Of a DNA stretch of 64,000 nucleotides, positions 6,919 through 61,593 are shown in pieces. Origin of the DNA: Faecalibacterium prausnitzii (lineage in GTDB: Bacteria > Bacillota > Clostridia > Oscillospirales > Ruminococcaceae); assembly GCF_003287495.1 (NCBI RefSeq), contig NZ_PRLE01000005.1:124001-188000 (forward strand), given 5' to 3'. The translations under genes were made by a program, and so were the position numbers. The notes beneath the pieces are model-generated. The model did no database searches and was not told the DNA's origin. It saw only the letters and a list, made by a program, of their open reading frames with translations. The stretch's first letter is position 1. Every line of letters starts with the position of its first letter.

Positions 6919-8379
6919 TTATTCAAACACGATGCAGCCCAGAATCTTCTTGCCCAGGCGCTGGATCTGCTCGTTCTGGTCGTTGACGGCGGTGTAGTGG
7001 GAGCAGGTGCAGTCTGCGGCCAGCACAATGGCGTCGGCGCTGGTCACCTGCGGCACGGTGGCCGCACAGGTCAGGATGCTCTCGGCGGCGGTAACCACCT
7101 GTGTCCGGAGGGCACCGGTATCCTGCAGGGCGGCTGCCAGCGCGGTGAGCTGATCAGCAGGCAGGTCGCCCGTAATGAGGATATGCTTTGCCTCCGGGGC
7201 TCGGCTGGCGATGGTGGCCGCCATCAGGCGGATCATCTCAGCATCGGTGCTGCCGTCCGGGCGGTGCTCCATCCGGTCAAGGGCGGCGTCCAGCTGCTTG
7301 CTCTGCCGGGTCTTCCCGCTGGCCAGGGTGCCAAGCAGGGGCAGGCGGCAGGTGTCCCGCAGCTCTTTGCCGGAGTAGACTTTGCCCTGCACGAGGAACT
7401 GCACGGTGCCCGCGCAGCAGACCAGCACGATGCCTGCCAGCAGGCCGATAAGGCCAAACTTGAGCACGGCGGAGGAGATGCGGGTGGACTGGAGCACGGG
7501 CTCTTCCGTGCTTTCCCACTCCTTGGTGGTATCTTCAAAGTTGCTGTCCAGCCGGGTGCGGCTCTGCTGCAGCTGGTCGATCTGGGTCTGCAGGGAGAGC
7601 AGGTTCTGGCTGTTTTCCGTCTGTGCGTCCCGCAGGTCGGTGGAGACGGTGCTGTAACTGCTCTGCGCGATGACACTGATGGTGTGGCTGCCCACCGAGG
7701 CCGTGATATTGGCGTCCATGGCATTCACCTGCTCCAACAGGGCGGCCAGAATGTTGCTGGAAGTCTGCTCACTGCTGCTCATGACCGTAATGGCCAGCAG
7801 GTGAGTGTCCGGGTCAGAAGAAATGGTCACCAGCTCCCGCAGGTAGCGCTCCTGCATGTTGAACTGTTGAGCCACCTCGCTCAGGGTAGAACTGTTTCCC
7901 AGCAGGGAAGCGTAGGCCGAAAGGACAGAATCGGTGCGGTCCGGATTCTGGTAGGCCATGCCGGGCTGGATCTGATAATTGGTGGTCACATAGAGGTCGG
8001 CCTGTGCCACCCAGACATTGTAGGGGTCCAGATTATTCCAGACGGAATTCTCAGCGTACTCCTGTGCTTTCTGGATGGCGTATTCGGTATCGCGCTGGCT
8101 TTTTTCGTTGTTGGCAATGTCGAGAGAATACTGCTGTTTGGCGGCCTCGTAACTCTCTTTTTTGCGGTTGTACTCGGCCAGCTCGCTTTCGTAGGCTTTC
8201 TGGGCATCCTGAGAGACCGCCCCGCCCCATGCGGTGTGTGCCCCGGCGGCCGCGCCAAAAATGATTGCGCAGGCCAGGGCGGCGGCAAGGATCTGCCGGT
8301 ATTTGCGCAGGAGCGTGAAAGTGAGCGCCACAAGGTCGATCTCCTCTTCCTGCCCGTACGCAGGCTGGTTTTCCATCAT
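6919..8379 (-). CDS. Wzz-type polysaccharide chain-length protein fused to a decayed BY-kinase-like domain
   Basis: A protein of 486 residues. An N-terminal membrane helix follows IDLVALTFTLLRKYRQIL (residues about 14-50), then a long extracytoplasmic region with coiled-coil heptads and a second helix near FGLIGLLAGIVLVCCA. This is the layout of Wzz/CapA co-polymerases that set exopolysaccharide length. The C-terminus resembles a CpsD-type tyrosine-kinase ATPase, but the Walker A position reads ITGDLPADQL instead of a GKS/GKT loop, and no Tyr-rich tail is present. AAGGAG precedes the ATG pair at 8379/8376. No glycosyltransferase genes are in the window, so it stands alone. Confidence 0.75.
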   Translation of the reverse strand: MMENQPAYGQEEEIDLVALTFTLLRKYRQILAAALACAIIFGAAAGAHTAWGGAVSQDAQKAYESELAEYNRKKESYEAAKQQYSLDIANNEKSQRDTEYAIQKAQEYAENSVWNNLDPYNVWVAQADLYVTTNYQIQPGMAYQNPDRTDSVLSAYASLLGNSSTLSEVAQQFNMQERYLRELVTISSDPDTHLLAITVMSSSEQTSSNILAALLEQVNAMDANITASVGSHTISVIAQSSYSTVSTDLRDAQTENSQNLLSLQTQIDQLQQSRTRLDSNFEDTTKEWESTEEPVLQSTRISSAVLKFGLIGLLAGIVLVCCAGTVQFLVQGKVYSGKELRDTCRLPLLGTLASGKTRQSKQLDAALDRMEHRPDGSTDAEMIRLMAATIASRAPEAKHILITGDLPADQLTALAAALQDTGALRTQVVTAAESILTCAATVPQVTSADAIVLAADCTCSHYTAVNDQNEQIQRLGKKILGCIVFE

Positions 8380-49488: not shown

Positions 49489-51090
49489 ATGAAACGACGT
49501 GATTTTTGTAAAGCGCTGGCCCTTTCGGCGGCGGCGCTGGCAGTGCCCAGGGCGGCGGCGGAAAACACGCAGGGCGCGGTGGGCCGGGCGGTGGCGGATG
49601 GCCGCTATTCCATGCGGTTCCGCAGTGAGCTGAGCCTGACCGACGTGCCCCATGACTACTATTATAGTGACAGCTTTTTTGCCCACTCCGCGTTGGAGTA
49701 CGACCACAGCCTGGCGCTGGCCAGCCTGGGGCTGGTGGGGGCCGCCTTCAACACGGCAGCCAGCGACGCCCGGTATTGGGCCAACGGGGAGGTGGGCCGG
49801 GAGGCCAACCTTGCCGACGCCTTTGCGACGCTGGGCTTTGCCGACCCCGAGTTCTACCACTACGACATCGACGTGGGGCAGGCCGGGGACTTTGTGGGCC
49901 ACAGCCTGGCCCGGAAGACCATCCCCCTGAACGGCCAGCGCGCCACCATTGTGGCCGTCATCCTGCGGGGCGGCGGCTACGGCGGCGAGTGGGTCAGCAA
50001 CCTGCACACCGGTGTGGGGGCGGGCCACGCGGGCTTTGTCATCCCGGTGAACGAGGTGCTGACCGCCCTCCGGAATTATCTGGCCAGGGCGGCCGCCCAG
50101 CCGGGCGGGACGGGCACCGTCAAGCTCTGGGTGGGCGGCTACAGCCGGGGCGCGGCCGTCGCTAACCTGCTGGCGGGGCGGATCAACAAAGACCTGCCCG
50201 AGATCGACCGCAAAAACGTCTTCGTCTACACGTTTGCCACGCCGATGGCCCTGACCGCCGCCAGCTACCCGGACTATCAGCTGGACTACGACAACAACCA
50301 CAACGCCGACGGTACCCTGAAAACCACCTGGGCCGCCAGCAACATCTATAATATCCTTTCCAGCGGCGACCTCGTCCCCCGGGTGCTGCCCGCCGAGTGG
50401 GGCTACCACCGGAACGGCAATGACCGCTTCCTGCCCTCCACCCAAAACGAGAAAGAGCTGGCCGACCTTGATGTCCGGGGTGCCAGCTTCAGCGAGGTGC
50501 CCCTGACCATCAGCGGGCTGGCCACCAAGGAGGACACCGACGGCGTCATGGAGCGGCTGGAAACGTTCTTTGGCAGCAAGCAGCAGTTCCACGATAAGTA
50601 CGAGGCCGTGCTGATGGACATGATCCAGTGCGCTTTCCTCCGCAACGAGGCCGAGTGCACCGAGGGCTATCTCCTGACCGACGAGGAAGTGGAGGCCCGC
50701 CTGCGGGGCCTGGGCAACATGCGGAACGTGGACGAGGCCAAGCTGGAAAAGAGCGTCCACAACGCCTCCGCCCTGAGCCGCCCCCTGCTGGAAAAGCTGG
50801 AGCAGAACGACGGCAACCTCACCCTGCGGGGCAAGACCTACCATGTGGAAGTGCCCCAGCGGGTGAAGCAGGCCGTTATCCCGGTGCTGGCCGTGGGCCT
50901 GTACTACGGCATCGACAGCGGCACGGTGGCCGCCATGGCCCGGTACATCTTTATGTTCATGTCCATGAAGCCCGACTCCGCCGATGTGGTGGTGCGGGCG
51001 GCGTTCTGCCACCACTGCGAGGACTACATCAGCCTGATGGAGTACTATCCGCCTGCTGACCACGGCATGGAGGCGTACACGAGAGCTTGA
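49489..51090 (+). CDS. Exported lipase-like (class 3) hydrolase with a twin-arginine leader
   Basis: A protein of 533 residues. The N-terminus MKRRDFCKALALSAAALAVP has a twin-arginine pattern (RRxFxK) before a short Ala-rich helix and a likely cleavage site after RAAA. The alpha/beta-hydrolase core has the nucleophile elbow GYSRGAA (Ser219), preceded by a LWVGGYSRG strand and followed by FVYTFATPMA, as in class 3 lipases; an acidic residue is near SSGDLVPRVLP and a His at WGYHRNGND. The substrate is unknown. AGGAGG is 13 bases from the ATG, so the start is slightly uncertain. Confidence 0.75.
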   Translation: MKRRDFCKALALSAAALAVPRAAAENTQGAVGRAVADGRYSMRFRSELSLTDVPHDYYYSDSFFAHSALEYDHSLALASLGLVGAAFNTAASDARYWANGEVGREANLADAFATLGFADPEFYHYDIDVGQAGDFVGHSLARKTIPLNGQRATIVAVILRGGGYGGEWVSNLHTGVGAGHAGFVIPVNEVLTALRNYLARAAAQPGGTGTVKLWVGGYSRGAAVANLLAGRINKDLPEIDRKNVFVYTFATPMALTAASYPDYQLDYDNNHNADGTLKTTWAASNIYNILSSGDLVPRVLPAEWGYHRNGNDRFLPSTQNEKELADLDVRGASFSEVPLTISGLATKEDTDGVMERLETFFGSKQQFHDKYEAVLMDMIQCAFLRNEAECTEGYLLTDEEVEARLRGLGNMRNVDEAKLEKSVHNASALSRPLLEKLEQNDGNLTLRGKTYHVEVPQRVKQAVIPVLAVGLYYGIDSGTVAAMARYIFMFMSMKPDSADVVVRAAFCHHCEDYISLMEYYPPADHGMEAYTRA

Positions 51091-51094
51091 CTTC

Positions 51095-51920
51095 TTTGCC
51101 AAGGGCTCTCCCTTTGGGAGAGCTGGCGCGCCAGCGCCTGAGAGGGCAAGCCCGACAAAATAAAACACGAAAGCACAGCGATACGATGGCTCTGACAAGC
51201 AGGGTGCGTATCGCTGTGTGTCTGGCTCTTTGGCAGCATCCTTGCCCTCTCCGTCACGGCTTCGCCGTGCCACCTTGCCCCCTTTCGGCACTTGCGTGCC
51301 ACCTCCCCCGGCCGGGGGAGTCTTTCCTAGTAGGGGAGGCTTTGGCATTCCGTGACGTTTTCCAGCAAACGCAAATCGGTTTCATCGAAAACGAAACCTT
51401 TTTGCCAAGGGCTCTCCCTTTGGGAGAGCTGGCGCGCCAGCGCCTGAGAGGGCAAGCCCGGCAAAATAAAACACGAAAGCACAGCGATACGATGTCTCTG
51501 ACAAACAGGGCTTGTATCGCTGTGTGTCTGGTTCTTTGGCAGCACCCTTGCCCTCTCCGTCACGGCTTCGCCGTGCCACCTTGTCCCTTTCTGGCACTTT
51601 CGTGCCACCTCCCCCGGCCGGGGGAGTCTTTCAAAGTGAGAGGCTTTGGCATTCCGTGACGTTTTTCAGCAAACGCAAATCAGTTTCATCGAAAACGAGA
51701 CCTCTTTGCCAAGGGCTCCCACTTTGGGAGAGCTGGCGCGCCAGCGCCTGAGAGGGCAAGCCCGGTGAAATTACTCCAGCGGCGTTGCGATACGATGGCT
51801 CTGACAAGCAGGGTGCGTATCGCTGTGTTTTTTGCTTTTTGTCAACATCCTTGCCCTCTCCGTCATTGCTTCGCAATGCCACCTCTCCCAAAGTGAGAGG
51901 CTTTGGCATCCCGCAACGCT
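51095..51920. repeat. Tandem array of three long hairpin repeats (copy group 6)
   Basis: Three head-to-tail units start at about 51097, 51401 and 51707 (about 305 bp each; the third is shorter). Each has GGCTCTCCC/GGGAGAGC and CTGGCGCGCCAG hairpins, a 12-bp inverted repeat CACAGCGATACG...CGTATCGCTGTG, a stem-loop such as CACGGCTTCGCCGTG, and CTCCCCCGGCCGGGGGAG in units 1 and 2. Spacers with GACGTTTT and GCAAACGCAAATC separate the units. No credible gene is present. Confidence 0.9.
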
Positions 51921-52279
51921 TCCGGGAAATCCCGGAAACGGATAAAATTCCAGAAACTCCCGCCAACGCAACCGGAATAGTAATACTTATTTATCCGACC
52001 CGCGTCTGTTTCGCACGGGTTAGCAGACACAAATTTGTAACTTTTTGCTGGTGGAGTGCACAAACTTTGGGGAAATACATTGGGCAATCTCTACAAGAAA
52101 TGGCTGATTTTGGATAGAAACAGACGCAAATTCCGTTTTTGTGTCCATTTGGACACTTGCATGGACAAGGCCAAATTTGGTAAAATAATGCCAGTGCAAG
52201 GGCCGGGTGGCCAGGCGGAAAAATCAGCGCCCCGCCACCGAATGACACCTTTTGCATCCCGGACTGTGTAGGATAGTAC
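51921..52279 (+). other. A/T-richer intergenic stretch before the pilus riboswitch
   Basis: About 360 bases with no open frame of credible composition. It holds a small perfect hairpin GTGTCC-ATTT-GGACAC at about 52141 and a possible promoter TTGCAT (52157-52162), 18 bases, TAAAAT (52181-52186), which would start transcription ~90 bases before the aptamer. Otherwise I see nothing definite. Confidence 0.4.
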
Positions 52280-52280
52280 C

Positions 52281-52459
52281 AGCAGCCGGGAACATCCCGC
52301 AAAACTGAAAACTTTGGCAAACCTGGCGTGAGCCGGGGACGCAAAGCTTGGAGTCTTTTGTGCTGGCATTCCCCGGAGGGAAACGCCAGAAAACCAGAAG
52401 ATAGTTCGGCTGCATTCAACACCGCTGTGACAGGCGGGGTGCGGATGCGGCTTTTTTTG
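52281..52459 (+). promoter_or_regulatory. c-di-GMP-I (GEMM) type riboswitch with terminator
   Basis: GGCAAACC (52316-52323), a helix TGGC-GTGA-GCCG with a GNRA loop, and GGGACGCAAAGC (52336-52347) are the core of the GEMM aptamer. A second helix arm follows (CTGGC 52363 with GCCAG 52385, and TTCCC with GGGAA inside it). GCAGCCG (52282-52288) pairs with CGGCTGC (52407-52413) to close the domain. GCTGCATTC (52409-52417) can instead pair with GGATGCGGC (52443-52451) before seven T, a terminator. Ligand binding that holds the closing helix would block termination, so it should be an ON switch for the pilus genes. Confidence 0.8.
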
Positions 52460-52518: not shown

Positions 52519-55500
52519 ATGCGTAAAAATCTTGCAAAACACACGGCGAAAAGGCTTCCGCTGGCCAAACGGGTGCTTGCGTTGTGCTTCGCGCTGATTT
52601 TCGTGTGCAGCTGTCTGCTGCCCGCCTTTGCAAACGGCACGGGCGCGGAGCTTGAGACGCCGGGCACCGAAGTAGTGGAGGCCGCCGCCCCCGGCGCGGA
52701 GCCGGAACCCATGGATCTCTACGACGAGCCCGCGGCCGTGGCGGACGAGCCCGAGGCGCTGGACGATAACTTCGGCGTGGCGGACGAGCCCGCAGCCATG
52801 GACAATGAAGTGGAAAAACCCGTTGTGGATGACGAGCCCGCAGCCATGGACGATCAGGTGGAAAAACCCGTCGTGGATGACGAGCCCGCAGCCATGGACG
52901 ATCAGGTGGAAAAACCCGTCGTGGATGACGAGCCCGCAGCCATGGACAATGAGGTGGAAAAACCCGTCGAGGGCGGCGAGCCCCCCGTGGCCGATGACAC
53001 CCCTGCCGAAGAGGGCGCGACGAAGACCACCACCGACGCAAGCGGCAACATCGTCTATGAGTACGACACCAGCGGCACGACGTTCCCCGATGACGACGCG
53101 GCCGCGCTCCCCGATGGCGACCAGGTGCTGGATCAGATGGACGCGGCGTTCTCCATCCCCACCAACATCTACCACTTCTGGCTCAAGAAGATGAGCAGCT
53201 ACGACCTCGAGGATATCGCCCGCGACGCCGAGACCGCTGAAATGACCGTGGAGCAGTATCTGGCCATGTACGGCACCGAGAAAGGCTGCTACCACATCAT
53301 GACCGCCGCCGACGGCGCGAACCTGAAAGACTATCAGTTCGCAAACCCCACCTCCAACGATGACCCCGAGGGCAACAGCCGCACCTTTGCAGGTTGGTAC
53401 TACACCGACGATCTGGGCGACGAGCAGAAGTTCGTGTTTGACGAGTGCCTGTACGTTTCCGAGGGCACGACCGTGGAAGTCTACGCGAAGTGGAAGAAGC
53501 CGGAAGCTACCAAGAGCGTTACGCTTGACGGCCAGACCATCAGCTTCAAAGTAGAGGGTGCAACAACGCTGAATGTTGAGGCGCTGGATACAGATACTCA
53601 GAAGAATCTGGAAGACGAGCTTATCCAGAAAATTGACCCGAAAGAGTATAATGCCCTTTATACATTCAATATCAGCCCCAAAGATGAGGGCGGCCTTGAG
53701 CTTGAGCAGACCAGCAAAGTTACCATTTCCGGTCTGGACCTCACCTCGGCGGCAGACGTAAAAGTCTTCCATCAGGGTGCTGATCTGGAAGAGCTGAAAG
53801 TGAATGTTACCAGCGATGGTGACTTGACTTTCACGACCAACGGCTTCTCTCCGTTTGCAATTCTGGTTGCAGACCTGTCCAAAGCAAATGACAGTGATAG
53901 CAGCGATGCAGATGACCGGATGGCAGAATTGGCAAATGAAGATAAAGCATATACGGTCTATAGTGATGGCAGTAACATTGAAATGCCGTTGAATGGAACT
54001 TATACGTTAAGCGGAAACGCCTATAAACCATACTGGTATACCAATTACCATAGTTGGTCGATAGAGTCGGGCGATGATGTGGTATCTTTCACCTCAGAGA
54101 AAAATATTCAGAATCCGACAATTAAAGGTAAGTCTGTAGGTACGGCAAAACTCAAACACACTTACTATATTTATTACTACAATCAAAAGTACTCTTATGA
54201 TGAGGAGTTTACCATCAATGTAACTAAGTTTGAAGATACGTACAGTGGCAGTGCTTATATCTACTTCTTGAAATTGCCTACTGGCGACCCGATGAACAAT
54301 GACACAGGCGAGTGGGCACCGAAAGCCGATAAAAGTAAGTTGGAAGCAAAAATCAGTACGGCAGGTGCTACTTGGACGAATGGCTACACTAATGATAACA
54401 GTGCAATTCCGAACAAGAACATTGTAACAGGAAACGGCCAGATCCTGACAGACTATATCACTTCGTGGCCAGATGGAAGCACAGGAACGACCTGGACGGT
54501 GAAAAAGGATGATCCGACTACAGGAAGTTACTTTACATCGATCTGGAATGAGATAAGCGAAAATTACATTGCATCCATACAAAATGAAACGGGTATCAAT
54601 GACCTGACAGTAGATGACATTACTGAAATTATCCTGACGCCCCGAAAGATTTCTCGTAATAACGGTGGAAGTCAGAACTATCATATCGATTGCGCGATCA
54701 GCGTTGTTACCAAGAAAGTCTTTACAGCGAAGTTCATGGTAAAAGACCCGACGAAAGGAGAAGAAAAGTGGTCGCAGGTCGATTCCAAGAACTACAAAGA
54801 GGGCGAAGCTGTTATCAAGACCACGGCTGTAACGATTGGAACAACAAAAACTGTTGAGGGCGTGAGGTATGAGCTGAAAGGCTGGTATACGGAAGACCCG
54901 CTGGGAGATATCAATGTTCACGGTCCATTGATTGAAGACAATGAATGGCGGAAGCGGGGAACAAACGATTATGGATATCTGACAACGAGCACGGATGCGG
55001 TTCGCGAAGATGGTACAGTTTATTTCTACGCCGTATGGGAGCCTGAGACACAGAAACCGATTCGGACGATCACGAAAAAGGTGGAAGGTCTGTTTGGTGA
55101 CCGTAGTAAGCAGTTCAGAATCGTAGTAACAGGCCCGAATGGCTTCTCTCAGGAATTTACTCTGGCGCATGGGGAGACTGGAACGCTGAATAATTTGATG
55201 GTTCAGGTCGGAGACGTCATTACCATTACGGAATATGATGCAAGCGATTATGATACCACGGCTCAGATCTATTACTCAAACAGTTCTAACGGATTGCTTG
55301 GAGCCAATGGACAGGAGTTCACAGGCGAAAACGAAAAAACTACTACGATTACCATCACAGATGATATGATCGATCTGGACGAGATCAATATCACTGTCAC
55401 CAACGAAAAGGACGCTCCGGTTGACAACGGTGTCCTCCTCGACACTCTCCCCTACATCCTGATCCTCGTGGTCGTCGCGGGCGGCGGCGTGCTGCTCTTC

Positions 55501-55533
55501 CTCCGGAAACGGAAGAACGACGACGATGAATAA
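52519..55533 (+). CDS. Large sortase-anchored adhesin / tip pilin
   Basis: A surface protein of 1004 residues. Signal peptide 1-38 (ends PAFA). Residues ~88-152 hold 16-residue acidic repeats (VEKPVVDDEPAAMDDQ). An InlB-type B repeat follows (TFAGWYYTDD...VEVYAKW, ~290-330), then a long beta-rich middle with a second B-repeat-like GWYTEDPLG...FYAVWEP. The last domain (~848-965) is FctA-like with a likely Lys853-Glu905-Asn962 isopeptide triad. The tail is VDNG (968-971) followed by a PYI membrane helix and RKRK. AAAGGAGG lies 9 bases before the ATG. It is the first gene behind the riboswitch; the middle is clearly A/T-richer than both ends. Confidence 0.85.
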   Translation: MRKNLAKHTAKRLPLAKRVLALCFALIFVCSCLLPAFANGTGAELETPGTEVVEAAAPGAEPEPMDLYDEPAAVADEPEALDDNFGVADEPAAMDNEVEKPVVDDEPAAMDDQVEKPVVDDEPAAMDDQVEKPVVDDEPAAMDNEVEKPVEGGEPPVADDTPAEEGATKTTTDASGNIVYEYDTSGTTFPDDDAAALPDGDQVLDQMDAAFSIPTNIYHFWLKKMSSYDLEDIARDAETAEMTVEQYLAMYGTEKGCYHIMTAADGANLKDYQFANPTSNDDPEGNSRTFAGWYYTDDLGDEQKFVFDECLYVSEGTTVEVYAKWKKPEATKSVTLDGQTISFKVEGATTLNVEALDTDTQKNLEDELIQKIDPKEYNALYTFNISPKDEGGLELEQTSKVTISGLDLTSAADVKVFHQGADLEELKVNVTSDGDLTFTTNGFSPFAILVADLSKANDSDSSDADDRMAELANEDKAYTVYSDGSNIEMPLNGTYTLSGNAYKPYWYTNYHSWSIESGDDVVSFTSEKNIQNPTIKGKSVGTAKLKHTYYIYYYNQKYSYDEEFTINVTKFEDTYSGSAYIYFLKLPTGDPMNNDTGEWAPKADKSKLEAKISTAGATWTNGYTNDNSAIPNKNIVTGNGQILTDYITSWPDGSTGTTWTVKKDDPTTGSYFTSIWNEISENYIASIQNETGINDLTVDDITEIILTPRKISRNNGGSQNYHIDCAISVVTKKVFTAKFMVKDPTKGEEKWSQVDSKNYKEGEAVIKTTAVTIGTTKTVEGVRYELKGWYTEDPLGDINVHGPLIEDNEWRKRGTNDYGYLTTSTDAVREDGTVYFYAVWEPETQKPIRTITKKVEGLFGDRSKQFRIVVTGPNGFSQEFTLAHGETGTLNNLMVQVGDVITITEYDASDYDTTAQIYYSNSSNGLLGANGQEFTGENEKTTTITITDDMIDLDEINITVTNEKDAPVDNGVLLDTLPYILILVVVAGGGVLLFLRKRKNDDDE
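52783..52974 (+). repeat. 48-bp in-frame tandem repeats in the adhesin gene
   Basis: Nearly identical units begin at 52810, 52858 and 52906, with partial units on both sides. Each encodes VEKPVVDDEPAAMD plus DQ or NE. Such identity at DNA level allows copy-number change by slippage or recombination. Confidence 0.9.
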
Positions 55534-55576
55534 GCCAACTTCCAAGCCAAATAAAATCACGAAAGGAGGTGGATGG

Positions 55577-55858
55577 ATGGCAAAAGAAAAAGCCAAAGGA
55601 GGCCCGCAGCCCGCACAGCGCCTGCCCGGCGCGGAGGATGCCTGCATCAGCCAGGAGCAGCTGGAGATCGTGGAATGGTACCGCAAGGTGAAGTTCCGCA
55701 AGAACCTGCTCGGCGGCGTGGATGAAGTGCAGATGTGGAAGAAGCTGGAGGAGCTCTACGGCCTGTACGAAAACGCCATCCGGGCCGAGAGAGCAAGGTA
55801 TAACGCCCTGCTGGAAGCCCATACCCCTCCCGGAGAGAACCATGAGGAGGGATGTTGA
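55577..55858 (+). CDS. Small cytoplasmic coiled-coil protein in the pilus operon
   Basis: A protein of 93 residues starting MAKEKAKGGPQPAQRLPG. The ATG at 55577 has AAAGGAGG 7 bases upstream; an ATG at 55526 overlapping the adhesin stop lacks a site. There is no signal peptide. The core FRKNLLGGVDEVQMWKKLEE and LYENAIRAERARYNALL is a predicted helix pair slightly reminiscent of the N-terminus of DivIVA/GpsB proteins, which recruit wall enzymes. That likeness is weak. Its stop overlaps the sipA start by one base (TGATG), so the two are coupled. Confidence 0.65.
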   Translation: MAKEKAKGGPQPAQRLPGAEDACISQEQLEIVEWYRKVKFRKNLLGGVDEVQMWKKLEELYGLYENAIRAERARYNALLEAHTPPGENHEEGC

Positions 55859-56427
55859 TGGCGAAAGCCGCAAAAACACTCCCTCCGCAAGACCCGCTCA
55901 CGGCAGGGCGCAGAGCCCTGCACAAGCGGCGCAACGCCGCGCAGGACCGCCGGGACGCGCTTGGTTTACTGGGCCGGGTGGTGGTGCTGGCGGCAGCCGC
56001 GTGGGTGCTGTTCACGCAGGTGTTCCTGCTGACACAGGCCTCCGGCAACAGCATGTTCCCCGCCGTCAAGGACGGCGACCTGCTCATCGGCTACCGGCTA
56101 CAGGGCACTTACGCCAAGAACGACGTGGTGCTCTATGAGCAGGACGGCAAGCTCCGGGTGGGCCGTGTCCTGGGCCGCGAGAACGACCTCATCGCGCTGG
56201 ACGATTCGGGAACGCTGATCGTCAACGGCTCGGCCCAGAGCGGCGAGATCCTTTACCCCACCTACGCGAAAGACACCCTCGAGTACCCCTACACCGTCCC
56301 CGCGGACAGCGTCTTCATCTTGGGAGACTACCGCACGCAATCCGAGGACAGCCGGGATTTTGGCCCGGTGGCCCTCACCGACGTCAAAGCAAAGGTGATC
56401 ACCCTGCTGCGGCGGCGGAGCTTGTAA
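55858..56427 (+). CDS. SipA-like signal peptidase I homologue lacking the catalytic Lys
   Basis: A protein of 189 residues: basic N-terminus, one membrane helix (~38-60), then the S26 fold. Ser65 is kept in SGNSMFPAVKDGD. The Lys normally found in the VKRxxG motif is replaced: RVGRVLG with Gly102. The last block reads FILGDYRTQSEDSRDFGPV, the GDN..SxDSR box. In streptococcal FCT pili, SipA shares this fold, has lost catalytic residues and acts as a pilus assembly helper. The ATG at 55858 is 7 bases after GGAGG. Confidence 0.85.
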   Translation: MAKAAKTLPPQDPLTAGRRALHKRRNAAQDRRDALGLLGRVVVLAAAAWVLFTQVFLLTQASGNSMFPAVKDGDLLIGYRLQGTYAKNDVVLYEQDGKLRVGRVLGRENDLIALDDSGTLIVNGSAQSGEILYPTYAKDTLEYPYTVPADSVFILGDYRTQSEDSRDFGPVALTDVKAKVITLLRRRSL

Positions 56428-56450
56428 GTTCTTGAAAACATTGATATAAT
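56422..56450 (+). promoter_or_regulatory. Consensus-like promoter directly before the major pilin
   Basis: TTGTAA (56422-56427, overlapping the sipA stop), 17 bases, TATAAT (56445-56450). The predicted start of transcription falls on or next to the AGGAGG at 56455-56460, so it would give an almost leaderless mRNA; it may be fortuitous. Confidence 0.4.
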
Positions 56451-56467: not shown

Positions 56468-57568
56468 ATGAAACTCAAGAAACTGTTTGCTGGTGTCGTA
56501 GCTGCGGCGATGATCGCCACCATGGCTTTCCCTGCATTTGCTGCTACCGAGGGTTTAGGCAGCAAGGGCTTCACAGTCGAAAATAACAAGTCCTTTGAAT
56601 TTGATAAGGTTTGGGTCACGAATGACGAAAGGGATTCGTCGATCGTCGCTCCGGGCGCTGCCCTTACGATGACGGTTCAAAATAACGGACAGCCTGTGAC
56701 CTATCCGCAGGGTGCGACTCCTGCTAGCCTGGAATTAAAAGTGAATTCTAATGACACGGCTGGCAAAACGGCGAGCTTTACTGTTGATCTTCCTAACTAC
56801 TCTGTTCCGGGTAAGTATACTTACATCCTGAAAGAGAATGATCCCAATGTCGCAGGTGTTGTGGCAAACGACAACCTTTATCAGGTGACTGTATGGGCAC
56901 TTCAGGATGAAGCAAACACTACTGGCGGCAACCACATTAAGGAATGCGGTGTGAAGCTGTCTCAGGTTCAGCTGGTTGATGGCGGATATGTTGAGGTTAC
57001 TGGAAAAGGTAAGCTTTCCAGTGTTGAGAACACCTATCAGGCTGGTACGGTGACTGTTACGAAGCATGTTACTGGTAACATGGGTGACAAGAGCACGAAG
57101 TTTAGCTTTAAGGTTGTTCTGGAATCTACTAAACCTGTGAATAGTGTGGTTGCAGGTAACAAGACTTTTGAGTTTGCAACAACGCCTAATGTTAATGGAA
57201 AGTATACCGCAGAGCAGACTTATGAGCTGGCTGACGGCGAGACTTGGACCATTACGAATCTGCCTTTTGGTGTTACCTATACTGTCTATGAAATGAGTGG
57301 CACTACCGCTGTTGAGGATCAGGGTACTTTGGTTGTTGCTGAAGACGGTGCGGACTCTAAGACTTATAAGGTTACCTATACCTCTCAGAGTGGTTCTCTG
57401 AACGAAGAAACTGAGGGCCATAAAATTGCGGCTACTGTTGAAAACAACTGCGGTGCTGAGATTGACACCGGCGTCATCCTCGACAATGCTCCTTACATCC
57501 TGATGCTGGCCGTTGTGGCTGGTGCTGCTATGACTCTGGTCATCAAGAAGCGCCGCGAGGAAGAGTAA
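56468..57568 (+). CDS. Major pilin, FctA / Spy0128-like, two isopeptide domains
   Basis: A shaft subunit of 366 residues. Signal peptide 1-25 (AFPAFA). Domain 1 (~35-190) has Lys47 in FEFDKVW, Glu123 in ILKEND and Asn188 in SVENTY. Domain 2 (~194-330) has Lys199 in TVTKHV, Glu275 in TVYEMS and Asn326/327 in VENN. These match the Lys-Asn isopeptide pattern with catalytic Glu in Spy0128. The tail EIDTGVILDNAPYILML plus KKRR resembles the FctA signal (VPTG...PYI) with IDTG in place of VPTG. AGGAGG lies 7 bases before the ATG. A/T-richer than its neighbours. Confidence 0.88.
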   Translation: MKLKKLFAGVVAAAMIATMAFPAFAATEGLGSKGFTVENNKSFEFDKVWVTNDERDSSIVAPGAALTMTVQNNGQPVTYPQGATPASLELKVNSNDTAGKTASFTVDLPNYSVPGKYTYILKENDPNVAGVVANDNLYQVTVWALQDEANTTGGNHIKECGVKLSQVQLVDGGYVEVTGKGKLSSVENTYQAGTVTVTKHVTGNMGDKSTKFSFKVVLESTKPVNSVVAGNKTFEFATTPNVNGKYTAEQTYELADGETWTITNLPFGVTYTVYEMSGTTAVEDQGTLVVAEDGADSKTYKVTYTSQSGSLNEETEGHKIAATVENNCGAEIDTGVILDNAPYILMLAVVAGAAMTLVIKKRREEE

Positions 57569-57607
57569 TGGAACACTCTCTCCGCAAACACTTTTAAGAG
57601 CCTCTGG

Positions 57608-57882
57608 CGATAACAGCAGACCTTGCGGAATGCCAAAGCCTCTCACTTTGAAAGACTCCCCCGGCCGGGGGAGGTGGCACGAAAGTGCCAGAAGGGGGCA
57701 AGGTGTCTGCGGAGCAGACGGAGAGGGCAAGGATGCTGCCAAAGAGCCAGACACACAGCGATACGCACCCTGCTTGTCAGAGCCATCGTATCGCAACGCC
57801 GCTGGAGTAATTTCACCGGGCTTGCCCTCTCAGGCGCTGACGCGCCAGCTCCCCCAAAGTGGGAGCCCTTGGCAAAGAGGTG
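57608..57882. repeat. Interspersed composite repeat, copy 7 (pilin-sortase spacer)
   Basis: The reverse-oriented form of a tandem-array unit: CTCCCCCGGCCGGGGGAG, GTCTGCGGAGCAGAC, CACAGCGATACG...CGTATCGC, then the GCTGACGCGCCAGC region and CTCCCAAAGTGGGAG type ends. Within the 386 bases between pilin and sortase genes there is no gene; this repeat fills most of it and the remaining ~70 bases are plain leader. Confidence 0.9.
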
Positions 57883-57954
57883 ACGTCCTCCGCAAACACT
57901 TTAACCTGACTCGCAATTCTCTTAACAATAACCAACATCGCAAGCTGACTGGAG

Positions 57955-58725
57955 GTGGGCTGTATCACTTGGCAACGTGTAGCGCTGCGGACAGCCGACT
58001 TCCTGATCAGCGCGGTGGTGGTGCTGTTCCTCCTCACGGCGGGCGCTTACTCCGCTTACGCGCTGTGGGATAACAACCAGGTCTATGCCGCCGTGGATAA
58101 CGTGCAGGACGAGCTGCTGCAGTTCAAGCCTGCCGCCGATGGCGAGAACGGCGCCTCCTTTGAGGAACTGCTGGCCATCAACTCGGACGTGAAAGCCTGG
58201 CTCACCCTGGACAACACCGCTATTGATTACCCTGTGGTGCAGGGCGAGAACAATTTCAGCTACATCAACACCGATGTCTACGGCGACTTTGCACTGGCCG
58301 GCAGCATCTTCCTGGATTCCGATTGTGATGGCAGCTTCCACGATCCGTATTCGCTGCTGTACGGCCACCACATGGAAAACAGCAAGATGTTTGGAGATCT
58401 TGACCTGTACAAGGACGAGGCGTTCTTCAACGAGAACACCACCGGCACGCTGGTCCTGCCCGACCGCACCTACCACTTACAAATTTTCGCCTGTCTGCTG
58501 GTGCCCGCGTCCGAGGATGCCATCTTCGACGTGAACCAGTGGGACGCAAACCTGAACGGTCTGCTCGATTTCGCACAGGAGAACGCGCTGCACCTGCACT
58601 CTGACACGCTGGACACCGTCCGGGCGCGGGAGGGGGCACAGGTGCTGGCCATGTCCACCTGTTCCACGGAGTTTACCGATGCAAGAACCATTCTTCTGGC
58701 GTGGATGACAACGCCGGAGCAGTAA
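57955..58725 (+). CDS. Class B sortase
   Basis: A membrane transpeptidase of 256 residues. An N-terminal helix (~12-38) is followed by the sortase barrel with DYPVVQGENNFSYINTDVYG, catalytic His138 in LLYGHHM, Cys236 in MSTCS and Arg244 in TDARTILLAW. The class B layout (YGHHM, long beta6/7 helix) fits polymerising pilin sortases of the FCT type. It probably recognises the DTG/DNG-PYI signals of the large pilins (inference). The start is unsure: GTG 57955 overlaps its GGAGG and no better codon is in frame. Confidence 0.9.
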   Translation: MGCITWQRVALRTADFLISAVVVLFLLTAGAYSAYALWDNNQVYAAVDNVQDELLQFKPAADGENGASFEELLAINSDVKAWLTLDNTAIDYPVVQGENNFSYINTDVYGDFALAGSIFLDSDCDGSFHDPYSLLYGHHMENSKMFGDLDLYKDEAFFNENTTGTLVLPDRTYHLQIFACLLVPASEDAIFDVNQWDANLNGLLDFAQENALHLHSDTLDTVRAREGAQVLAMSTCSTEFTDARTILLAWMTTPEQ

Positions 58726-58738
58726 AGGAGGGGATGAA

Positions 58739-59575
58739 ATGAAGATCCGAAAATTCGCGGCGACGCTGCTGGCACTGGTGCTTTGCCTGAGCCTGAGCCT
58801 GCCCGCGGCCTTTGCGGAAGCGCAGCAGCGTGTGGAGCTGAAAAACCTGACGGTCAACGTCAAGTGCACGGGCAATGCCATCCCCGACGAGCAGCTCACC
58901 ATCCGCCTGACCCCCCGCAAAAAAGCCCCCATGCCCGGCGATGCCGCCGCACTGGAAGCGTTCGTCAACACGGCGGACTGCACCCGTTCCAACGGTTATA
59001 TGACCACCGCCACATTCCCGGAGACATTCGTCTTCACGGCCCCCGGTACCTATGAGTACGAGGTGGCCCAGCGGAAAGGCAGCTCCCTCAACGGCACTTA
59101 CGACACCCGCACCATGGTGCTCCGTGTCACCGTGAGCTGGAGCGGCGACACGCTGGTGACCGTGGCCAAGGTCTATGAGGCCGACCAGTCCTCCAATGAC
59201 AAGGAAGACAGCATCCTGTTCCACAACACGTTCAACAACTCCGCCCCGGACGACCCGTACGATCCGCCGTATATCCCGGGTGACCCCTACACCCCGGACC
59301 CGAAGCCCACGCCTGTGGTGCCTACCCCGGAGACCCCGGTGAACCCGCCGGTCCTAGACGCGCGGCCGGATACCGCCCCCACGGTGTCCACGGCGCCCAC
59401 GGTGCCCGCCGCGGAAACGCCCGTCAATCCTCCGGTGGCTGACGCGCGTGCCCCCAAGCTGATCCAGACCGGACAGCTCAACTGGCCCGTGCCGGTGCTG
59501 GCAGGGCTGGGCACCCTGTTCCTGGCGGCTGGCGTGATCCTCCTCACCAAGAAGAAAGAGGATGACAATGCGTAA
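58739..59575 (+). CDS. Minor / anchor pilin with Pro-rich stalk and LIQTG signal
   Basis: A protein of 278 residues. Signal peptide 1-26 (AAFA). Residues ~30-165 form one FctB/Spy0128-like pilin domain with FVFTAPGTYEYEVAQRKG and a final FHNTF strand. Residues ~170-238 are Pro/Thr-rich with two ETPVNPP repeats, a wall-spanning stalk. LIQTG (241-245) followed by QLNWPVPVLAGLG, a helix and KKK is an LPXTG-like signal. By analogy it anchors the pilus to peptidoglycan. AAAGGAGG lies upstream, 13 bases after the sortase B stop. Confidence 0.88.
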   Translation: MKIRKFAATLLALVLCLSLSLPAAFAEAQQRVELKNLTVNVKCTGNAIPDEQLTIRLTPRKKAPMPGDAAALEAFVNTADCTRSNGYMTTATFPETFVFTAPGTYEYEVAQRKGSSLNGTYDTRTMVLRVTVSWSGDTLVTVAKVYEADQSSNDKEDSILFHNTFNNSAPDDPYDPPYIPGDPYTPDPKPTPVVPTPETPVNPPVLDARPDTAPTVSTAPTVPAAETPVNPPVADARAPKLIQTGQLNWPVPVLAGLGTLFLAAGVILLTKKKEDDNA

Positions 59576-60173
59576 AGCATCCCCGGGCGTCATCTGTGTC
59601 CTGCTGGGAGTCGTCCTGCTGCTGGCGGCGCTGGGACTCTACGGCTACAACCGCTGGGAGGACGCTCAGGCTGGCGCGGAAGCCCAGACCGTCGTACAGG
59701 ATCTACAGGAAAAAGTCGTTGAACAAACACAGAGCGCGGCCTCGGCTCCCGCCATCGACACCAGCTCCCTTGACCCGGAGCTGCCCGTGGTGGAGCTGGA
59801 CGGCTACGAATATGTGGGCACTGTCTCCATCCCCGCCATTGGCATCGACCTGCCGGTGATGAGCGAGTGGAGCTACCCCAAACTCAAAATTTCCCCCTGC
59901 CGCCAGTTCGGCTCCTCCCGCACCGATGATCTCGTCATCGCGGCGCACAACTACGAGTCGCATTTCGGCAAGATCGGCACCCTCGCCCTGGGCGATGAGG
60001 TCCGTTTCACCGACATGGACGGCATCGAGAACCACTACACGGTTTCTGCCATTGAAGTCCACGACCCCACCGATGTGGAGGCCGTGGAGCACAGCGGCCA
60101 CGATCTGGTGCTGTACACCTGCACCTACGGTGGCAAGACCCGCATCGTCGTCTTCTGTGACAGAAGCAATTGA
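59568..60173 (+). CDS. Second sortase (class D-like)
   Basis: A protein of 201 residues: N-terminal membrane helix (~6-28), linker, then a compact sortase barrel with VGTVSIPAIGIDLPV, catalytic His127 in AAHNY, Cys185 in LYTCTYGG and Arg192 in KTRIVVFCDR. It overlaps the end of the anchor pilin gene by 8 bases; AAAGAGG lies 6 bases before the ATG at 59568. Its position directly behind the LIQTG protein suggests that protein as substrate. Confidence 0.88.
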   Translation: MRKASPGVICVLLGVVLLLAALGLYGYNRWEDAQAGAEAQTVVQDLQEKVVEQTQSAASAPAIDTSSLDPELPVVELDGYEYVGTVSIPAIGIDLPVMSEWSYPKLKISPCRQFGSSRTDDLVIAAHNYESHFGKIGTLALGDEVRFTDMDGIENHYTVSAIEVHDPTDVEAVEHSGHDLVLYTCTYGGKTRIVVFCDRSN

Positions 60174-60204
60174 AGACATTCTCGGATTCCATTCCCGCAC
60201 CCCC

Positions 60205-60241
60205 GCACCGGAGACGCCCGGTGTGGGGGATTTGTTTTTGT
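60205..60241 (+). terminator. Terminator of the pilus operon
   Basis: CCCCCGCACCGG and CCGGTGTGGGGG pair around AGACGC, followed by ATTTGTTTTT. Confidence 0.85.
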
Positions 60242-60257: not shown

Positions 60258-60779
60258 CTTACCTCTTTGCCAGAGGTTCCCCTTTGGGGGATCTCTTGGC
60301 AAAGAGGTGACGTTCCCGATGAAACTTTATTGTATTTGCTGGAAAACGTCACGGACTGCCAAGGCCTCCCCTACCAGGGGAGGTGGCACGGCGAAGCCGT
60401 GACGGAGAGGTTGTACAGAGCAGCACCTGCGTTATTCCGCTCAATCAAAAGGCGTCCTTTGTCCAACCTCTCAGTCTCGCTGCGCTCGACAGCTCCCCTG
60501 GCAGGGGAGCCTCTGGCGAAGAGGTTTCGTTTTCGATGAAACTGATTTGTGTTTACTGGAAAACCTCACGGACTGCCAAAGCCTCTCCCTTTGGGAGAGG
60601 TGTCTGCGAAGCAGACGGAGAGGGCAAGGATGCTGCCAAAGAGCCAGACACACAGCGATACGCACCCTGTTTGTCAGAGCCATCGTATCGCAACGCCGCT
60701 GGAGTAATTTCACCGGGCTTGCCCTCTCAGGCGCTGCGCGCCAGCTCCCCCAAAGGGGGAGCCTCTGGCGAAGAGGCTT
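60258..60779. repeat. Composite repeat block, copy group 8
   Basis: Three parts: a short inverted pair CCTCTTTGCCA...TGGCAAAGAGG (60262-60308), a unit at ~60356-60520 with CACGGCGAAGCCGTG and CTCCCCTGGCAGGGGAG type stems, and a unit at ~60572-60777 with CTCTCCCTTTGGGAGAG, GTCTGCGAAGCAGAC and the CAGCGATACG inverted repeat. Units are joined by ACTGGAAAAC-CTCACGGACTGCC spacers. No gene is present in the ~680 bases between the sortase and the DUF4830 gene. Confidence 0.9.
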
Positions 60780-60849
60780 TGTGCATATCCCCAATTCACA
60801 CAGGCATATACTATACGGACACAACCAAATGGGTGGGAGGGAACGGTAT

Positions 60850-61593
60850 ATGTTTGTGGTAACGCTGAAAAAGGCCGGGCTCAAAAAGGTGGGCGTCGGC
60901 GTGATATGCTGTGCGTTGGTGGTGTTCAGCGCGGTGCTGGGGCGGTACATCAGCGGGCGGAGCGTCATGGCGGCCGCCGCGGCCAGCGGCAACAAGATCG
61001 AGAGCGCCCAGGACATCCAGACCTGGTTCACCGGCTATGGGCTGGACGTGGACGCGGCCACCATCGCCGCCGATAAGGTCAAGATCCCCCGCAGGTGGGA
61101 CGACAGCTTTTCGGCCTTCAACGGGGTGGTGCAGCAGAGCGGCATGGACCTGACCCGCTACAAGGGCAAGACCGTGGAAAAATGGACGGCCCTGCTGCCC
61201 GCCGTGAGCAAGGGCGACACCATGAGCTATGGCGTGCTGCTGGTGTACAAGAAAAAGGCCATCGGGGCCTACCTGCTGGAAAAGCCCTCCGGCGTCGTCA
61301 CCGGCCTGAAAGACGCCCAGACCGCTATGGCCATGCAGGAGGCCACGGAAGTCTCGGGGGAAGATTTCAGCGGCGATTGGGGCGAGCGCCATGACGAGGA
61401 GCTCGGCGCCTCCGGGCAGGCCATGGAGACCTCGGGCGAGGATTTCAGCGGGGACTGGGGCGAGCGCCATGACGAGGAGCTGAACGCCTCCGGCCAGAGC
61501 CAGCAGACCTCCGGCGAACCCGAGACGCCTCTGCCGGAAGCGGCCCGCTATACGGACCTCCCGCTGGACGCCGAGGGGTACCCTGTCGAGTGA
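60850..61593 (+). CDS. DUF4830 domain protein with 26-residue tandem repeat
   Basis: A protein of 247 residues: one membrane helix (~8-38), then a DUF4830 domain (~50-155) with IQTWFTGYGLDVD, VKIPRRWDDSFSAFNGVVQQ and the SGMDLTRYKGK stretch. Residues ~167-220 are two near-identical 26-residue units (SGEDFSGDWGERHDEEL...). The C-terminus is acidic and Pro-rich. Function unknown; external face likely. The ATG at 60850 has GGGAGG 9 bases upstream; the open frame upstream is translated repeat element and is excluded. Confidence 0.7.
   Translation: MFVVTLKKAGLKKVGVGVICCALVVFSAVLGRYISGRSVMAAAAASGNKIESAQDIQTWFTGYGLDVDAATIAADKVKIPRRWDDSFSAFNGVVQQSGMDLTRYKGKTVEKWTALLPAVSKGDTMSYGVLLVYKKKAIGAYLLEKPSGVVTGLKDAQTAMAMQEATEVSGEDFSGDWGERHDEELGASGQAMETSGEDFSGDWGERHDEELNASGQSQQTSGEPETPLPEAARYTDLPLDAEGYPVE
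61346..61502 (+). repeat. 78-bp in-frame tandem repeat in the DUF4830 gene
   Basis: Two adjacent copies of about 78 bases, each with GATTTCAGCGG and GGGGCGAGCGCCATGACGAG, differing at a few third positions. Confidence 0.85.

Follow-up and report, generated by a model that had tools for sequence, protein, structure and literature searches.

A predicted c-di-GMP-I riboswitch with the build of a transcriptional ON switch ahead of a sortase-pilus adhesin gene in Faecalibacterium prausnitzii

In this study we identified, in front of the gene for a large surface adhesin of Faecalibacterium prausnitzii, a riboswitch which, judged by its sequence, is a real member of the c-di-GMP-I type and which most probably (we put the chance at about 80%) acts as a transcriptional ON switch of that gene. 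It is located in a window of 64,000 nucleotides (the whole stretch of DNA that was analysed), at the head of a locus which encodes the parts of a sortase-built pilus. The features of the window described below are all on the plus strand.

Comparison of the window with 4227 Rfam families placed RF01051 (c-di-GMP-I) at 52306-52417, with 46.3 bits (gathering cut-off 35) and an E value of 6.9e-06; the genome has three RF01051 matches, this one included. The original prediction, which had named this type of riboswitch and proposed a search with the GEMM-I covariance model, was thus borne out by a match above the cut-off; the c-di-GMP-II riboswitch was not among the three over-cut-off Rfam matches in the 64-kb window. 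The core and GNRA-capped helix that had been read by eye are also present, since GGCAAACC, GGGACGCAAAGC and a P2 helix with the loop GUGA all occur. In order, the core comprises GGC (52316-52318; position 20, a G in contact with the ligand, followed by two core-pair bases), the P2 helix (52322-52337), GACGCAAAGC and the P3 helix (52345-52411), in which a 5' strand (52345-52355) and a 3' strand (52400-52411) are separated by a long inserted hairpin. A G and a C (52412-52413) end the core. With the model structure laid on the sequence, 18 of 18 aptamer pairs were standard (six in P2, two in the core and ten in P3), and when the 191-nt region was shuffled 200 times with its dinucleotides preserved, one shuffle gave a fold as good or better. 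In the RF01051 alignment the ligand-contacting residues G20, A47 and C92 correspond to G52316, A52343 and C52413; we take this numbering to follow the Vc2 structure of V. cholerae, with C52413 presumably the equivalent of C92.

An intrinsic terminator, recognized by folding and arm comparison, occupies 52408-52458 (stem 52408-52452, T-run 52452-52458) and lies 60 bases ahead of the adhesin ATG at 52519. Its 5' arm, GGCUGCAUU (52408-52416), begins five bases before C92 and reuses the 3' strand of P3 together with C52413. Reuse of an aptamer strand by a terminator 60 bases before the adhesin had been predicted correctly, but the strand in question is that of P3 and C92 rather than the 3' strand of a P1 closing helix. 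Because the 3' strand of P3 and C52413 are common to both structures, aptamer and terminator are mutually exclusive, and ligand should therefore favour read-through. The ON geometry of the original prediction is retained in this way, though by means of P3 and C92. The lowest-energy fold (-75.0 kcal/mol) contained the terminator; with the aptamer enforced the value was -69.6, a gap of 5.4 kcal/mol which, in this model, could be paid by a tightly bound ligand. Free energies were computed against transcript length for three assumed starts. In none of these calculations was ligand-free P3 the ground state; depending on length and start, it lay 2.0 to 6.8 kcal/mol above the ensemble.

We infer ligand binding, the direction of switching and read-through in the cell, which would proceed as follows. 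In the absence of ligand, GGCUGC, the 3' aptamer strand with C52413, would become part of the intrinsic terminator as the leader is made, and transcription would end ahead of the adhesin. Once c-di-GMP is bound, the aptamer would retain P3 and C52413, the terminator could not form its base, and RNA polymerase would then read into the genes of the adhesin, the small ORF and the signal peptidase. Expression of the major pilin and the sortases could come from the same read-through, but this need not be so, since the pilin seems to have its own promoter.

The same build is found at other sites of the genus. In ten of them, the best T-tailed partner of the terminator arm pairs with it at 9 of 9 positions (nine sites) or at 8 of 9 (one site), and at position C92-2 both sides change (T-A in five sites, C-G in four and T-G in one). 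These ten sites were chosen out of 30 for showing this build and so are not an independent test; shifted and random sets served as the control. The control was applied to 161 sites, 131 from the family and 30 from the genus (the window's included), with tandem copies each counted (approximately 143 clusters); 24 of the 161 have fewer than 3,000 bases of downstream sequence. The family search covered 297 genomes under stricter filters, with weak sites missing and five rows below the cut-off excluded, and within Faecalibacterium c-di-GMP-I matches were present in 13 of the 31 genomes searched. A crude scan for terminators recorded 39 sites with an overlapping terminator, 80 with a terminator downstream only, 41 with none and 1 other (it filed G001c as downstream, though the arm comparison shows overlap, and G017, which is outside the ten, as overlap). 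Overlap was thus seen at 39/161 aptamer sites versus 14/644 random places in the same loci. With the place shifted by 20 to 40 bases, it fell between 4 and 13 of 161 upstream and between 21 and 30 of 161 downstream, the latter values being high because terminators lie there anyway. At 19/161 sites the arm began 5 or 6 bases ahead of C92, as against 0 to 6 of 161 in the shifted sets. It is only this exact start, at -5 or -6, that is telling, and not overlap in general.

Among the genus sites, G013:C18 (the best-scoring alignment with the aptamer of the window), G001:C12 and G013:C11 are of the same sub-type, with GTTCGGCYGC and an overlapping terminator; they differ from the window in that the protein search revealed no relatives of its pilus proteins downstream. 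Two of these sites (L059 and L040, in G001:C12 and G013:C11) were seen by eye to precede apparent exopolysaccharide chain-length and related genes.

The locus behind the switch is, according to its protein families, FCT-like and of the sortase-pilus type, as the original prediction had it; FctA-like pilins, a pilus sortase and a signal peptidase occur together. The first gene (52519-55533) encodes the adhesin, a protein of 1004 aa with a signal peptide and a C-terminal anchor recognized by eye, for which no Pfam or NCBIfam family exceeded its cut-off. It is followed by a small ORF of 110 aa (55526-55858), without a match in Pfam or NCBIfam, and by a SipA-like signal peptidase I (55852-56427; TIGR02227 with 93.7 bits against a cut-off of 47, PF10502 with 58 bits). 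The FctA-like major pilin (56468-57568) matched PF12892 (25.9 bits, cut-off 22.1) and PF24547 (51.8, cut-off 27). Next come a class B sortase (57955-58725), which scored 167.4 bits with TIGR03064 (cut-off 153.75) and 24.4 bits with PF04203, below the cut-off of 26.6, and a second pilin (58739-59575) with an FctA domain (PF12892, 36.1 bits), a pilin isopeptide domain (TIGR03786, 35.9) and an LPXTG-type anchor (TIGR01167, 18), all over the cut-off. The last gene (59562-60173) encodes a second sortase (PF04203 with 57 bits, cut-off 26.6), for which no NCBIfam class was over its cut-off. A terminator-like hairpin of 12 pairs (60200-60229), found by a hairpin scan, may close the locus; such hairpins number 7 in the region versus 5.2 in shuffles, and this one is weak by itself. 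The succession of an ancillary protein, a signal peptidase, an FctA-like pilin, a class B sortase and a second pilin resembles the gene order of the FCT loci of streptococci, at which we know of no c-di-GMP riboswitch.

How far the control by the switch reaches along this locus is a separate matter. For the leader itself we found one or two candidate promoters, both uncertain, at 52157-52189 (TTGCAT-18-TAAAAT with a TG, or TGGACA-16-AATAAT; start near 52194-52197). Within the locus, a promoter match was identified at 56422-56450 (TTGTAA-17-TATAAT, the -10 preceded by TG). No other perfect extended -10 on the plus strand of the window has a -35 of at least 4/6. The match ends 17 bases ahead of the major pilin ATG, and its start would leave a leader of about 10 bases. 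In the two related loci of the genus (G003 and G013), the sequence ahead of the pilins revealed no comparable extended -10. Should this internal promoter be active, the switch would act mainly on the adhesin and the signal peptidase and less on the filament. Control over the whole FCT-like locus, as originally proposed, is doubtful in view of this promoter and of the two related loci, which have no switch.

Adhesin matches were obtained in 3 of the 31 genus genomes, the window's own included; a search with the adhesin as query against genome contigs yielded no relative. In the other two genomes, G003 and G013, the adhesin is matched over parts only, at 31-52% identity, and related pilus loci are present. 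RF01051 gave no match up to E 0.1 in these loci (16 and 12.5 kb, respectively), and the adhesin of G003 is preceded by a strong promoter match instead of a switch. Because it is missing from both G003 and G013, the switch looks lineage-specific from these sequences, having been either gained here or lost twice, and this Faecalibacterium lineage may have added it recently. By eye, the order LysR, lipase-like gene, adhesin is kept in G013, where 164 bases separate the last two versus 1428 bases in the window. The longer gap accommodates the riboswitch and a repeat present three times, at intervals of 303 to 306 bases. These direct repeat copies are at 51030-51900, between the lipase-like gene and the riboswitch; similar repeat stretches were noticed by eye at approximately 57570-57900, inside the pilus locus, and at 60287-60900, after it. 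A PTS enzyme I gene neighbours the locus; its relatives in the genome search, at up to 93% identity, indicated Faecalibacterium as the genus.

A wider proposal, which we regard as speculative and on balance unlikely, is that c-di-GMP sets the make-up of the pilus and not its presence, through control acquired in this Faecalibacterium lineage. Were it true, the large adhesin (and the signal peptidase) would be gated by the switch, the major pilin and the sortases would depend on the 56422-56450 promoter, and the cell would swap between bare and adhesin-bearing pili.

The same promoter match, the lack of a switch in both related loci and the low score of the window aptamer within its genus (27th of 30 sites; this also speaks against the reading as an ON switch) would also suit a captured or decaying switch, a relic with a small effect on pilus output because the major pilin is self-promoted. 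We give this explanation little credence: the aptamer with its 18 pairs and the terminator arm of 9 bases have both stayed intact, and a transcript begun at the internal promoter would have no more than about 10 bases ahead of the pilin ATG.

The reading as an ON switch must also be weighed against a helix at the 5' end of the leader. The original prediction had a closing helix whose 5' strand would be GCAGCCGGG at 52282-52290; helix scan, folding and shuffles indicate a competing helix which is possibly due to chance. This stretch is complementary to UUCGGCUGC (52405-52413), that is, to the 3' strand of P3 with G52412 and C52413. As P1 the pairing of 52282-52290 with 52405-52413 was rejected, because UUCGGCUGC belongs to the 3' strand of P3 and to the G and C ending the core, and a helix which takes this strand is incompatible with the aptamer. 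The apparently long spacer between closing helix and core, described as longer than usual and regarded as a hint of a variant, is an artefact of this misassignment. No stable P1 adjoining the core was found: the closing helix is outside the pairs of the RF01051 model, UGAA at 52306-52309 with UUCA at 52415-52418 (a separated helix of four pairs, by eye) is the only possible P1, and a scan of upstream strands against the 3' end in ten genus sites gave no helix common in length and place.

The 5' helix could nevertheless be functional, as a third state which breaks both aptamer and terminator and sets a ligand-independent leak. It has nine paired bases and the top helix score among the ten sites compared, and for transcripts starting at 52275 and ending at 52417-52450 it lies 2.6-2.8 kcal/mol above the ensemble, P3 lying at 3.0-6.8, which makes it the more favourable of the two up to the completion of the terminator. 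An equal or better helix was, however, obtained in 75/2000 leader shuffles (in 28/2000 when scoring was limited to the UUCGGCUGC strand) and in 52/3000 random 90-nt segments of the window. Moreover, its cost is 6.6 at full length with the start at 52275 and 3.5 to 5.1 at all lengths tried with the start at 52196. A helix of this length and place is absent from the other nine genus sites compared, several of which have shorter helices (up to 7 pairs) to parts of the 3' strand, placed elsewhere. Such a role for the helix thus seems rather improbable to us.

The direction of switching has precedents on both sides. The class I switches that work in C. difficile are of the OFF type, according to the parts of PMC6200980 and PMC6366702 available to us, which counts against an ON switch here, though in that species c-di-GMP raised one gene that follows a class I switch (same sources). 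An OFF switch in the window, in which the ligand stabilises the terminator, would follow this mode of working (PMC6200980, in part), but it would need two structures that here cannot coexist, as they have in common a strand and a ligand-contacting C; in the OFF switch Cd1, aptamer and terminator are able to coexist (excerpt of PMC9262584). We therefore consider an OFF switch very unlikely.

As regards the ligand, position 20 of the window aptamer is G (G52316) and not the A of the cGAMP (GEMM-Ib) variant. The genome encodes seven GGDEF and two EAL matches, so that c-di-GMP can be made and degraded. Five of the seven GGDEF loci have a readable motif (four GGDEF and one SGDEF, each preceded by GHxxGD), the count resting on these five as L035 and L037 gave none. 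We take the Asp of GHxxGD to be the residue that is Ser in Hypr enzymes. These enzymes have Ser where canonical cyclases have Asp (PMC6456294, as excerpted), and, by their motifs, the five diguanylate cyclases that could be read appear canonical. The substitution G20A has been linked to the cGAMP variant (PMC6274999, as excerpted). By analogy, A at this position alone would not mean cGAMP, because the Bc2 riboswitch of B. thuringiensis BMB171, with A at what is presumed to be the same place, answers to c-di-GMP. Across the 161 sites, with indels disregarded, position 20 is A in 23, G in 137 and T in 1; elsewhere in the genome from which the window comes, two tandem c-di-GMP-I aptamers (L047 1259-1514; G000:C12:365758-366013) have A in the first and G in the second. 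A cGAMP-binding variant, which the original prediction had suggested, is highly improbable. The 23 family and genus sites with A at position 20 would speak for it, but the window's site has G, and in each of the five GGDEF domains that could be read GHxxG is followed by D, not Ser. c-di-GMP is the likely ligand on these grounds.

Among the systems described previously, Bc2 and pilM stand nearest to the window's switch. Bc2 has a class I aptamer, ON switching via read-through of an intrinsic terminator and a Gram-positive surface adhesin gene as target (PMC4933901, in the part available). It stands before the collagen adhesion gene cap, whereas the window adhesin heads a pilus locus, and its ligand-contact base A11, in the presumed place of G20, is A where the window has G. 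The same excerpt reports that Bc2 responds to c-di-GMP and not to c-di-AMP, GTP or cGMP, with cGAMP not among the compounds it mentions. The pilM riboswitch of Geobacter metallireducens shares with the window an aptamer and a terminator that exclude each other, the ligand-pairing C (C75, the counterpart of C92) being sequestered by the terminator (PMC9262584, in part). Its ligand is cGAMP, unlike the probable c-di-GMP of the window, and its antiterminator is formed by the 5' strand P and a strand A (same excerpt), for which the window has no clear counterpart. In C. difficile, c-di-GMP-II switches precede pilA1, CD630_28310 and CD630_32460, and c-di-GMP raises pili and sortase-dependent surface proteins; there the aptamer is of another class and the pili are of type IV, not sortase-built (both from the accessible text of PMC6200980 and PMC6366702). 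Surface filaments are likewise concerned in Aeromonas hydrophila, where c-di-GMP switches before putative fimbrial genes are predictions only and the fimbriae are Gram-negative (PMC6366702, in part).

Elsewhere in the family, too, c-di-GMP-I switches are placed ahead of sortase-anchored proteins. A sorting-signal pattern flagged 30 of the 161 sites, of which 22, at 12 loci, were kept by eye. This is a lower bound, as the pattern missed the window's own adhesin. The remaining eight sites (G305, G112, G126, G077 twice, G006b, G011 and G001b) were dropped by eye. When the six pilus proteins of the window were compared (E up to 1e-4) with the sequences behind the 161 sites, the single further site with a match was in G221, where the switch precedes an LPXTG-type protein and at least two sortases among the matches listed (numbers of sortases near sites are minima in this sense). 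At this site (L169; G221:C6, aptamer at 7404-7490 on the minus strand) a stretch about 20 bases further on was seen by eye to be complementary to the 3' strand of the aptamer, with no T-run. In G143 and G060, switches lie ahead of large surface proteins with FctA domains. One locus of G143 (L159; G143:C3:11701-12239) has three consecutive c-di-GMP-I aptamers before an anchored protein of 1953 aa with six FctA-domain matches.

In titles and abstract starts of the open-access literature, among the matches listed, we found neither a c-di-GMP riboswitch in Faecalibacterium nor one before a sortase-built pilus. The switch type is already known, but its placement before the adhesin of a sortase-pilus locus looks new. 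If the reading as an ON switch is true, c-di-GMP control at such an adhesin would link life on surfaces to a second messenger in this organism.
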